Virus record (IMG/VR): IMGVR_UViG_3300043444_000523
Coordinates: 40,737-104,736 of that record
Source: a virus
DNA length: 64,000 nt
Strand: one strand, 5' to 3'
The notes under the pieces were generated by a model. It was not told where the DNA came from, did no database searches, and saw only the letters and a program-made list of their open reading frames with translations. Shown here in pieces: positions 18,976 to 23,069 of this stretch; the first letter of the stretch is position 1, and the number at the start of each line of letters is the position of its first letter. A program made the translations under genes and the position numbers.

Positions 18976-18986
18976 GTTGCCAAAGA

Positions 18987-19009
18987 AATAGGCGCAACTC
19001 GCGCCTATT
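18987..19009. repeat. Dispersed palindrome, copy 5
   Basis: Arms AATAGGCGCAA and TCGCGCCTATT. It lies between converging frames and holds the stop codon of the terminase fragment. The same layout recurs at 22416, so the palindrome moved or was duplicated together with the terminase tail. Confidence 0.9.
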
Positions 19010-19226
19010 TCCGCCTCCCCCACAGGCTGACCTTCTTTTCGTCTCTTCGGGGCGGCTCGTCTGGTATACTTGCAGGCGAGCCCCTCTGTCCCCTGCCTCC
19101 GATGCCGATCCGTGCGCCCATCGTCTGGTCTGTTCGTGATGCTCCGGTTTCTATGCCAGCTAGTGAAGCAACTCCGAAGTCGGCATGGAAGTGGGCCAGA
19201 TTGAATGCGTCCATGCCGTCTGACAA
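19005..19226 (-). pseudogene. Terminase large subunit 3' fragment, inverted copy
   Basis: Reads on the minus strand as the last 70 or so residues of the terminase at 20615-22420: from DGMDAFNLAHFHADFG to the identical ending LWGRRK and stop. Nucleotide identity is roughly 85-90% with mostly silent differences, so it came from a functional relative rather than by simple recent duplication. There is no upstream terminase sequence; similarity stops sharply at the catalytic Asp motif. It forms an inverted repeat with 22200-22438. Confidence 0.8.
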
Positions 19227-19291
19227 GCGAAAGAAACAGCACAAGTTCAAGTGCAGACGATGCCACAAAAAGGCGTTCCTAGAAGAGCCAA

Positions 19292-19874: not shown

Positions 19875-20210
19875 TCACACCAGTTCCAGAATCCTTCGCG
19901 CCTGTTCACGCCCCATCTCGTTGACCGCACTCTTCATGGCCGCAACGTGACCGGCGTAGTCGATTGGCCTCGGCGGATCAATTGGCCCGGTGGTATACGA
20001 AGTCACAAGGCGGAACGACTTCTTGGCTCCGTCTTGTTTTGGCTTCCCATTCTTGATGATCGACTTGTACGTTGACACCTGAGCCAACGTGGCCTCGACA
20101 CCGCTCTTGGAGCAGTATTCGACGATCTTCTGATTGTCCGTGATGCCGTCCTTGATCGCTTGCCGAACCATCCCCATCCGAGACGGCTTCTTCTCTTTTG
20201 CCTTTGACAT
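19875..20210 (-). CDS. Small HTH-like protein
   Basis: 111 residues, basic N-terminus. RMGMVRQAIKDGITDNQKIVEYC followed by EATLAQVSTYKSIIKNG fits a winged or simple helix-turn-helix (start of DNA recognition helix at VSTYKSII). Upstream of the 19828 gene on the same strand and divergent from the permuted tRNA locus, so it might regulate that intergenic region. Inferred. Confidence 0.55.
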   Translation of the reverse strand: MSKAKEKKPSRMGMVRQAIKDGITDNQKIVEYCSKSGVEATLAQVSTYKSIIKNGKPKQDGAKKSFRLVTSYTTGPIDPPRPIDYAGHVAAMKSAVNEMGREQARRILELV

Positions 20211-20275
20211 GCATACCTCTTGTTAGAAACGGGACCAAACACCATTATCATGATACTGGATGTGACACGCCGCGT

Positions 20276-20282: not shown

Positions 20283-20356
20283 TCAACCGGGTAGCCCAAC
20301 GGAAGAGGCAGCGTCGGCCTATCAGACTATCACAGGAGACTTGTAACGTCGTGCCA

Positions 20357-20504
20357 AGGTCATGATCGTTTGTCGGCCTTAATGCCCTGAGATGCAGGTT
20401 CGATTCCAGCTCCCCCAGCTTATCCACAACCCTACTGGGGGATCGTCTAACGGAAAGACATCAGGCTTAACGATTGAGGGCCACAAGTGGATAAGAGCAT
20501 GACC
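20357..20504 (+). tRNA. Circularly permuted tRNA candidate
   Basis: The 3' half comes first. Anticodon-stem strand CCTGA (20386-20390), T-arm GCAGG-TTCGATT-CCAGC (20394-20410, one mismatch), acceptor strand TCCCCCA and G73 (20411-20418). A 17-base linker follows. Then the 5' half: acceptor strand TGGGGGA (20436-20442, pairing 7 of 7), D-arm GTCT-AACGGAA-AGAC (20445-20459), anticodon-stem strand TCAGG (20461-20465, pairing 5 of 5) and CTT. The flanks also pair: 20369-20383 with 20473-20487 over 14 pairs with two single-base bulges four pairs apart, and GGTCATG with CATGACC outside that. No conventional partner for either half exists nearby. The variable loop is short and the anticodon cannot be fixed because the joining point is unknown. 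The CUU/GAG helix at 20466-20478 resembles the P1 of group I introns in tRNA anticodon loops, so a split self-splicing intron is one possible maturation route. Confidence 0.6.
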
Positions 20505-20543
20505 AACCTGAAAAGGCGCATCCCATCTTGAGTGATGGACTCG

Positions 20544-20576
20544 GACCCGGCAGACGGCTACTCTGTCGGGTCTTTT
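20544..20576 (+). terminator. Rho-independent terminator
   Basis: GACCCGGCAGA pairs with TCTGTCGGGTC over 11 positions (one G-T), loop of seven, then TTTT. It closes the permuted-tRNA transcript before the terminase gene. Its ACCCGG strand could alternatively pair with CCGGGT at 20287. Confidence 0.75.
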
Positions 20577-20614: not shown

Positions 20615-22420
20615 ATGTTAAGTGCCTCCGAACTCGCCGAACTTGAAGCCTATCTCCCGCACGCCAATGAAGATGAACGTCGGAAGATCAACGAGTATCT
20701 AGTCTCCATCCGCAAGGTGGAGAACAACTTCCCTTGGGCCGCATACCGATACGATCCAATCGGCTATGCGTACAACGTCCTTGGCCTCACGTTCCTTTCC
20801 GACGATCAGAAGATTGCACTGCGAGCGGCTGTAACGCCTCCGTACCGAGTGCAAATTGACGCCGGAAACGCTGTTGGCAAAAGCCTAACCTGCGCCGTCT
20901 TGGCCTCATGGTTCTACGACTCATATGACCCAGGCTGCGTTTTCACTACGGCCCCGACGCACGATCACGTTGTCCGCGTGCTCTGGGCGCAAATACGCTC
21001 GCTTAGGTCCAATGCCAAGATGAAGCTACCGATGGACTTCATCGGGCCAGCTGCACCTGAGATGCGATCATCGGAATATCACTTTGCAAAAGGCCTGACC
21101 GCCTCGAAAGGAGAGGCGCTCAAAGGTTCTCACTTGCAGAATATGTGCTTCATATTCGACGAGTCTGAAGCATTGCCGGTGATGTACTGGGAATCTGTTC
21201 GCACGATGTTTAAGCCGCAGCCGGGTATGCTGTGGCTATCCGTGGGCAACCCGACAACCACCAGCAGCGCTGCATTCCTTGAGTCCACTCGCACGGATGA
21301 GAACAAGAAGCCGTTCTGGCGCAACCTGCGCATGAGTGTGCTCAATCACCCAAACATCATAGCTGGTCTCCAAGGGCTTCCGCCGCCAATCCCAAACGCC
21401 GTCGATGTCGGCATGGTGGATGACTGGGTGCGACGACTATGCACGCCTCTCGATGAAAAAGAAGAAAAAAAAGCCACTGACTTCCAGTGGCGAGGAAGAT
21501 GGTATCGGCCAAGCGGTGAAGCCGAGACGGTCATTCTCGGCTGTCGCCCGTCAACAGGAGCATCCGGCGTTTGGTCAGACTCGCTCTGGGAAGCCTGTTG
21601 CCATCTCGATTTGCCGTTCCCAATCGATCAACCACCCGAACTTGGCTGTGACGTGGCCAGAGTCCTTGGTGGCGATGATTGCGACATTCACGCACAATGG
21701 GGCGGCAACTCTCTCGCCCATGACTCTGCCAATGGCCGCTCTATACCAGCTACCATCGCTCGTCTCAAAGAGATGGCCGAAGAAGTATGCGAGTTTGCCA
21801 ACGCCAAGAGAAAGGAACTTGTGGCCACTGGCAAATACTCACCCGAAGAACTCTCCAGGGCTCAAATCCACAAGCCGTGGGTTCCCAAAGAAATACCTGT
21901 CAAGATCGACGATTGCGGCATCGGCAACGTCATCACCGACTTTGCAGACGGCTGGAACTTCATCCCAGTCAACCCAGGCTGGGCTGCAAAGCAAGACCTA
22001 CGTTATCCCAACGTCCGAAGCGAGCTGTGGTTTGAGACCCAGGAGAAGGCCATACTGTTCGGCCTCAGCATGAAGCACCTGTCTGAAGATGATCAGCAGA
22101 TGCTGCGTATCCAATCCTTTGCGCCAAAGTGGGAGTTGGATGCTAGACGCCGACGAGTTGTTGAGAGCAAAGAGGACACAAAGAAACGACTTGGCCGCTC
22201 GCCAGACGGCATGGACGCATTCAATCTTGCCCACTTCCATGCCAACTTTGGCGTGGCCTCATTGGCAGGCATCGAAACCGGAGTATCACGAACAGACCAG
22301 ACGATGGGCGCACGAATCGGCATCGGCGGCAGGGGACAGAGGGGCTCGCCTGCGAGTGTTCCAGACGAGCCGCCTAGAAGAGACGAGAACAAAGTTACTC
22401 TGTGGGGGAGGCGGAAATAG
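20615..22420 (+). CDS. terL: Terminase large subunit
   Basis: 601 residues. N-terminal packaging ATPase with Walker A AGNAVGKS (about 83-90) and Walker B C-F-I-F-D-E (about 178-183). C-terminal RNase-H-like nuclease has GCDVAR (about 342), KIDDCGIG (about 429) and SPDGMDAF (about 530), the three acidic clusters. It packages DNA into the head through the portal. It is on the plus strand while the small subunit (30.1 kb) and portal are on the minus strand. The last 70 codons plus the palindrome are repeated in inverted orientation at 18987-19226. Overlaps the converging gene at 22395 by 26 bases. Confidence 0.9.
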   Translation: MLSASELAELEAYLPHANEDERRKINEYLVSIRKVENNFPWAAYRYDPIGYAYNVLGLTFLSDDQKIALRAAVTPPYRVQIDAGNAVGKSLTCAVLASWFYDSYDPGCVFTTAPTHDHVVRVLWAQIRSLRSNAKMKLPMDFIGPAAPEMRSSEYHFAKGLTASKGEALKGSHLQNMCFIFDESEALPVMYWESVRTMFKPQPGMLWLSVGNPTTTSSAAFLESTRTDENKKPFWRNLRMSVLNHPNIIAGLQGLPPPIPNAVDVGMVDDWVRRLCTPLDEKEEKKATDFQWRGRWYRPSGEAETVILGCRPSTGASGVWSDSLWEACCHLDLPFPIDQPPELGCDVARVLGGDDCDIHAQWGGNSLAHDSANGRSIPATIARLKEMAEEVCEFANAKRKELVATGKYSPEELSRAQIHKPWVPKEIPVKIDDCGIGNVITDFADGWNFIPVNPGWAAKQDLRYPNVRSELWFETQEKAILFGLSMKHLSEDDQQMLRIQSFAPKWELDARRRRVVESKEDTKKRLGRSPDGMDAFNLAHFHANFGVASLAGIETGVSRTDQTMGARIGIGGRGQRGSPASVPDEPPRRDENKVTLWGRRK

Positions 22421-23069
22421 GCGCGAGTTGCGCCGATTTCTTCTTATCAAGCATCTCAGTCAAATGCTTCCGAATGGCCGAATTTTGGTCATCGCATTGC
22501 TTATTGTAATCGAACAAGTCTTCGGGACTGTTGAAGAACATCCTGCCTACCAGTCGTTGGTCTTCTACGCGGAATCTGTCGTCTTTGTCAATGAAGCAGA
22601 ACTCTTTCTCTGATGAAGCCACCAGCCTGAACTGGTTCCCATCGCTATCAAACACCGTCATGTTCACGCCAAACACGCAACCAGGATGCTCAGGGTCAGG
22701 AAACTTTTCACGAGCGTCTCGAATGTCTTTTGCCGACAGGCAGACCTCGGTATTGTGATAAACAAGCACAATCGTCTTCAGTTTGCCCCAGTCCAAGACG
22801 GCCTTGTACCGTATCGATTCATAGTCTTCGCCGAAGCCCGTGTACGTAAAGCCATAAGCGGCCCCGACGCAGTTGTCGTCATAGAAGACAATCTCGCCGG
22901 AGAACGGAACCTGATCGCCGTCAAGCGACAGGCCACGCTCCATTTCAATCCAATATGTCTCAAGATGGCAACCAAGGCTCTTCGTCTGGTACTGATGGCG
23001 CGCATCCTTGATGAAGTTCGCCTTCTTCGGCAGCGGCGCAGTGCAGATGATCGTGTCATACATTCCCAT
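22395..23069 (-). CDS. Hypothetical conserved phage protein
   Basis: 224 residues from MGMYDTIIC. The start 'MYDT-' with a short Cys/Pro stretch, then LETYWIEMERGL and GEIVFYDD strands, is a pattern I have seen in small metal-binding phage proteins, but no function is known. The C-terminal SAQLAPIS comes from the palindrome copy at 22416. Tail-to-tail with terL, stops overlapping. Confidence 0.6.
   Translation of the reverse strand: MGMYDTIICTAPLPKKANFIKDARHQYQTKSLGCHLETYWIEMERGLSLDGDQVPFSGEIVFYDDNCVGAAYGFTYTGFGEDYESIRYKAVLDWGKLKTIVLVYHNTEVCLSAKDIRDAREKFPDPEHPGCVFGVNMTVFDSDGNQFRLVASSEKEFCFIDKDDRFRVEDQRLVGRMFFNSPEDLFDYNKQCDDQNSAIRKHLTEMLDKKKSAQLAPISASPTE
22416..22438. repeat. Dispersed palindrome, copy 6
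   Basis: Arms AATAGGCGCGA and TTGCGCCGATT. Serves at once as the terL stop region (plus strand) and as coding sequence Lys-Ser-Ala-Gln-Leu-Ala-Pro-Ile-Ser (minus strand). Confidence 0.9.

Follow-up and report, generated by a model that had tools for sequence, protein, structure and literature searches.

A circularly permuted tRNA locus beside a phage terminase gene and similar arrangements in other bacteriophages

A swapped-order tRNA upstream of the terminase gene

The window analysed here is a stretch of 64,000 nucleotides from a virus record of 104,736 bp (IMGVR_UViG_3300043444_000523). Within it, about 400 bp separate a short reverse-strand gene (19875–20210) from a gene (20615–22420) that we call the terminase large subunit through distant similarity, and this interval holds an RNA-like locus on the + strand in which the halves of a tRNA occur in swapped order. 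The 3′ half comes first, followed by a 17-nt linker and then the 5′ half (20386–20465, coordinates verified), which is the arrangement that defines a permuted tRNA gene, with the 3′ half before the 5′ half and the acceptor ends bridged by a short sequence. The original prediction had named an acceptor stem of 7/7 pairs, an anticodon stem of 5/5 and a D-stem of 4/4, and all three are present. The features, in window coordinates and all on the + strand, are as follows.

20224–20251, +, weak sigma-70-like promoter candidate, 9/12 matches
20358–20364, +, outer leader–trailer helix, 5′ strand GGTCATG; 7/7 pairs with 20498–20504, pairing probability 0.99–1.00
20369–20383, +, inner leader–trailer helix, 5′ strand TTTGT-c-GGCC-TTAAT; pairs with 20473–20487
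20386–20390, +, anticodon-stem 3′ strand CCTGA; 5/5 pairs with 20461–20465
20394–20410, +, T-arm GCAGG-TTCGATT-CCAGC; conserved TTCGA loop, 4/5 stem pairs and one A.A
20411–20417, +, acceptor 3′ strand TCCCCCA; 7/7 pairs with 20436–20442
20418, +, discriminator G73; CCA not encoded
20419–20435, +, 17-nt linker between the natural 3′ and 5′ tRNA ends
20436–20442, +, acceptor 5′ strand TGGGGGA; 7/7 pairs, U1-A72 and G73 as in tRNA-Gln
20445–20459, +, D-arm GTCT-AACGGAA-AGAC; 4/4 pairs, GG in the loop AACGGAA
20461–20465, +, anticodon-stem 5′ strand TCAGG, followed by CTTAACG; 5/5 pairs
20473–20487, +, inner leader–trailer helix, 3′ strand ATTGA-g-GGCC-ACAAG
20498–20504, +, outer leader–trailer helix, 3′ strand CATGACC
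20543–20573, +, intrinsic terminator for the RNA gene, preceding the terminase gene; 12-pair stem with 7 G-C, then TTTTCT

The tRNA 3′ part starts at 20386 or inside the loop bases just before it, and the anticodon loop becomes readable only after a junction is chosen. The inner leader–trailer helix comprises 5+4+5 = 14 pairs, interrupted by two opposed 1-nt bulges four pairs apart, and the sequence CTTAA is repeated at both edges of the permuted tRNA (20378–20382 and 20466–20470). Further upstream, 20287–20312 (CCGGGTAGCCCAACGGAAGAGGCAGC) resembles a 5′ half belonging to another tRNA (compare GCCGGGGTAGCCCAAAGGTAGAGGCAACGG in Arthrobacter phage Racecar), with no 3′ half close by. The surrounding region also carries a 247-bp inverted repeat, 89% identical, at 18983–19229 and 22196–22442: the terminase gene has its 3′ end (residues 528–601, 90.5% identical) duplicated there on the opposite strand, and the permuted tRNA is located between the two copies.

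Chance, folding and competing accounts of the locus

A detector that requires only the T-arm, acceptor and D-arm, ignoring the anticodon stem and flanks, matched this locus and no other in the 104,736-bp genome, where 0.17 chance hits per genome are expected in first-order Markov sequence; the perfect 5-pair anticodon stem comes in addition. The leader–trailer pairing of 14 + 7 pairs is as originally described and exceeds chance, its duplex (−25.1 kcal/mol) having a P of 0.0025–0.004 against shuffles and 0.01 when compared with other places in the window sequence that have the same geometry. When only the cloverleaf pairs were imposed, the whole leader–trailer helix formed unaided (−47.4 kcal/mol, versus −47.6 for the free optimum). 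The overall folding z-score is modest (−1.5), and a competing fold at −44.7 kcal/mol pairs linker 20419–20427 with trailer 20487–20495 over 9/9 complementary positions, so that the permuted fold is plausible but not forced. ARAGORN called no tRNA on the locus as it stands and did call one once the sequence was rotated, giving Ile(UAU), yet the U1-A72/G73 combination and the D-arm look Gln-like. The permuted tRNA locus is real, and it is unusual.

One contig, 100% identical over 7.8 kb, is the sole relative of the locus, and covariation is therefore unreadable here. A blastn search of the locus against phages gave no diverged relative, and a Gln-specific permuted pattern again found the identical contig only. 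Terminase and portal scans recovered that contig plus two portal relatives at 33–35%; no permuted tRNA was found in the first of these, and the second contains a single poor pattern match, apparently in coding sequence.

The original prediction had also raised self-splicing, in which the flanks would be the two ribozyme halves of a natural permuted group I intron–exon and would circularise the tRNA by splicing. A P1-like GGCUU/GGGCC helix with a U.G at the proposed site and the resemblance of CAGACTA (20323–20329) to a P7 strand speak for such a ribozyme. Against it, a covariance search with cmscan and Rfam returned no group I match in the 601 bases around the locus, either at gathering score or at the permissive E ≤ 5, a search in which split halves could lower the score. 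ACCCGG (20545–20550), proposed as one strand of a split P6, lies within the stem of the intrinsic terminator (20543–20573), the GGTCATG/CATGACC helix is misplaced for P3, and too little sequence remains for P8–P7–P9. Inspection by eye, allowing one mismatch, gave CAGACTA and TTGTCG (20370–20375) as the only P7-like strands, without a consistent P3/P8; P3, P8 and P9 do not fit, and no complete P3–P8 core emerged. We consider a group I origin very improbable. What found support in the earlier reading is the permuted tRNA with its leader–trailer helix, an arrangement that is repeated in other phages; the group I component was not supported.

Our preferred reading, which we judge to have a marginally better than even chance of being correct, is that the phage carries here a circularly permuted tRNA gene with its split in the anticodon loop, as part of a short, self-terminated RNA whose anticodon-loop ends become joined. 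For a function of this single locus the odds are about even, and the main rival is that it is a relic. A tandem tRNA pair whose neighbouring copies lost the 5′ and the 3′ half, respectively, could leave the same order of halves as an unmatured remnant without function. The anticodon loop that is not clearly decodable fits such a history, as do the CTTAA repeats at both edges and the upstream tRNA-like 5′ half, which suggests old tRNA debris. Decay of this kind does not, however, predict the terminator, the leader–trailer helix or stems that have been perfectly kept, and many other phages show this layout with helices that co-vary (see below); we regard the relic account as unlikely, although it is the strongest competitor to a permuted gene.

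Permuted tRNAs across phages

A pattern for permuted acceptor halves, run over viral contigs, returned 103 stretches with 106 match places, and at 81 of these 106 the T-arm or acceptor strand is not explained by an ordinary tRNA. Many of the matched stretches show the same permuted order within a leader–trailer helix, often with ACAG[CT]AA right 3′ of the leader strand, and a scan for ACAG[CT]AA near a T-arm gave at least 120 matches. Under a stricter filter, the other collected loci contain, among the matches listed, 106 distinct candidate permuted tRNAs, which may include some false positives and are nearly all viral; by loop they divide into 63 ACAG[CT]AA-like, 11 TACTTC-like and 32 others. 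Matches to a CCGGC/GCCGG acceptor pattern were mostly coding sequence, with a few clear permuted units.

We compared pairing within and between loci for 58 distinct ACAG[CT]AA units among the matches listed, using a score of at least 8 and dissimilar leaders only. Own-trailer pairing of the helix beside ACAG[CT]AA is seen in 84% of cases and pairing with the trailer of another locus in 3%; the own-trailer pairing is kept though the helix sequences differ between loci, which constitutes covariation across the set. In a rough automatic classification, the breaks appear to lie at the variable loop, on the D side or in the anticodon stem, and in the anticodon loop. At one locus (L208, 8236–8360) the permuted cloverleaf is the unconstrained folding optimum, with a z-score of −3.6, and further ACAG[CT]AA permuted units are found in L116, L022 and ON615601.1.

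The last of these is a cultured phage, Synechococcus phage BUCT-ZZ01 (laboratory host Synechococcus elongatus PCC 7942), which carries one permuted unit with TTCAGCAA, on the minus strand at about 122108–122247 of its record. A second cultured phage, Arthrobacter phage Racecar (MN234206.2; laboratory host Arthrobacter globiformis B-2979), has two permuted units in tandem at about 99074–99375, where the annotation shows no tRNAs; they have different flanks and no ACAGCAA, and the first is split in the anticodon loop, like our locus. The flanks of the BUCT-ZZ01 and Racecar units are unrelated. Our locus shares with the ACAG[CT]AA units the permuted tRNA within a leader–trailer helix, and some of them are likewise split in the anticodon loop, but it lacks ACAG[CT]AA, and its helices and loops differ.

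The ACAG[CT]AA element is not confined to permuted genes. In one phage clade, the D-arm of a serine-type tRNA of ordinary order is interrupted by it, as an insert of some 60 nt (L022 8266–8405; also L015, L058, L061, L064, L066, L077 and L096), whose 3′ edge, we infer, falls between CAG and TA of CAGTA. We tentatively propose, at somewhat short of even probability, that bacteriophages commonly carry circularly permuted tRNA genes and that the transcripts mature through a splicing activity that is neither of group I/II type nor a bulge-helix-bulge endonuclease: an intron of about 60 nt, consisting of the leader–trailer helix and the ACAG[CT]AA loop, would be removed from genes of both ordinary and permuted order, yielding circular pre-tRNAs in the permuted case, with the 20386–20465 locus as a diverged or independent member. 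The recurrence of permuted tRNA genes in phages, two of them cultured, would mean that phages or their bacterial hosts possess an undescribed route of tRNA cutting and joining, and that standard tRNA finders overlook a class of viral tRNAs.

Several side observations accompany this set. A segment of the insert in these serine-type tRNAs and the 5′ acceptor strand are complementary and change together (AGATAG/CTATCT in L022), and similar complementarity occurs as GAAGTAG/CTACTTC in L087 and GGAGTAG/CTACTCC in L088. U is nearly universal at tRNA position 33; a purine apparently occupies this anticodon-loop position in several tRNAs of L007, L008, L058, L064 and their relatives (for instance CGTTTAA and CAGTTAA). 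Permuted tRNA candidates in three GC-rich phage contigs, L253 (IMGVR_UViG_3300009987_000002), L251 and L257, have TACTTC or a similar sequence in place of ACAGCAA in their leaders, and some of their leader–trailer helices span 11–12 bp.

Possible maturation and comparison with known systems

For the permuted gene at 20386–20465 we envisage that a short RNA would be transcribed across the locus and end at its own terminator (20543–20573). The leader–trailer helix would keep the two anticodon-loop ends side by side, their joining would produce a circular precursor, and RNase P with host 3′-end enzymes could then excise the linker, after which CCA would be added. Removal of the linker by RNase P and 3′-end enzymes is known for algal permuted tRNAs (PMC3978253). 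The joining agent might be a ligase of the RNA-repair type acting on the helix-held ends, which would be as compatible with this scheme as an RNA-catalysed step.

Neither RtcB nor tRNA-splicing endonuclease (PF01974) nor a member of the RNA_ligase family was found in the recovered 104.7 kb, a record that is possibly incomplete, and the host might supply the endonuclease. Across 30 large viral records containing these or similar units, RtcB and a T4 Rnl1-like ligase each exceeded the cut-off in 5 and tRNA-splicing endonuclease in 0; with 5, 5 and 0 of 30, these were rejected as the common enzyme. RNA_ligase PF09414 was present in 19 of the 30 and in both cultured phages (21/32, counted without matched control phages), a co-occurrence that is suggestive, though uncontrolled and involving enzymes that are common in large phages. 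The annotation of Racecar lists two RNA ligases, a polynucleotide kinase and a tRNA nucleotidyltransferase. There is no known splicing enzyme common to the permuted-unit phages.

The halves might also never be ligated. Permuted two-piece tmRNA of some bacteria has its tRNA-like halves swapped, with an excised piece between the acceptor strands. Such permuted tmRNA is mentioned in PMC3978253, and our locus resembles it in the order of halves and in the intervening piece between acceptor strands; it is unlike tmRNA in its canonical D-stem, anticodon stem and T-arm, and a tag-like reading frame was not seen. With no tmRNA call by ARAGORN and a D-stem of 4/4, we rejected tmRNA identity. A two-piece, tRNA-like RNA of another kind could nevertheless be formed if end-processing enzymes removed the linker and the pieces were held together by the acceptor stem and leader–trailer helix, serving for example as a decoy and not in decoding. 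The shared gene order, the long helix that continues the anticodon stem and the recovered genome without a recognisable ligase are in keeping with this idea; the same features that separate the locus from tmRNA count against it, as does the occurrence of the element in the wider set as an intron-like insert in ordinary tRNAs, which suggests its removal. We think a two-piece RNA rather improbable.

In a 2014 review the count of permuted tRNA genes stood at 34, all from algae and one archaeon, and these were tied to a protein endonuclease whose use by bacteria is not known (PMC3978253). Those of Cyanidioschyzon, other algae and Thermofilum pendens also place the 3′ half first, then an intervening sequence, then the 5′ half (PMC3978253), and, as in our locus, leader and trailer pair around the junction. 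They differ in using a bulge-helix-bulge cut by tRNA-splicing endonuclease; our locus has no rightly placed motif of this kind, and the enzyme was not found in the recovered phage genome. A bulge-helix-bulge consists of 3-nt bulges flanking 4 bp; the bulges here are 1 nt each, lie on the 5′ side of each 4-bp strand and are off the exon junction, and hence do not form this motif. A search confined largely to open-access papers turned up no account of permuted tRNAs in phages.

The larger value of the locus is as an entry point to a recurrent phage arrangement, and its cultured carriers make the question of maturation testable in laboratory infection. Phage permuted tRNAs may also bear on the enigmatic introns in the tRNAs of Lak megaphages, which their authors left unexplained (Devoto et al. 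2019, PMC6784885). Like the phage element described here, these introns are short insertions in phage tRNA genes, and that report makes no mention of permutation (PMC6784885); in two Lak stretches that we scanned, no ACAG[CT]AA permuted unit was found. The leader–trailer element itself also occurs around a short sequence or hairpin in place of a tRNA, at about 8863–8970 in L022 and about 7440–7520 in L054.
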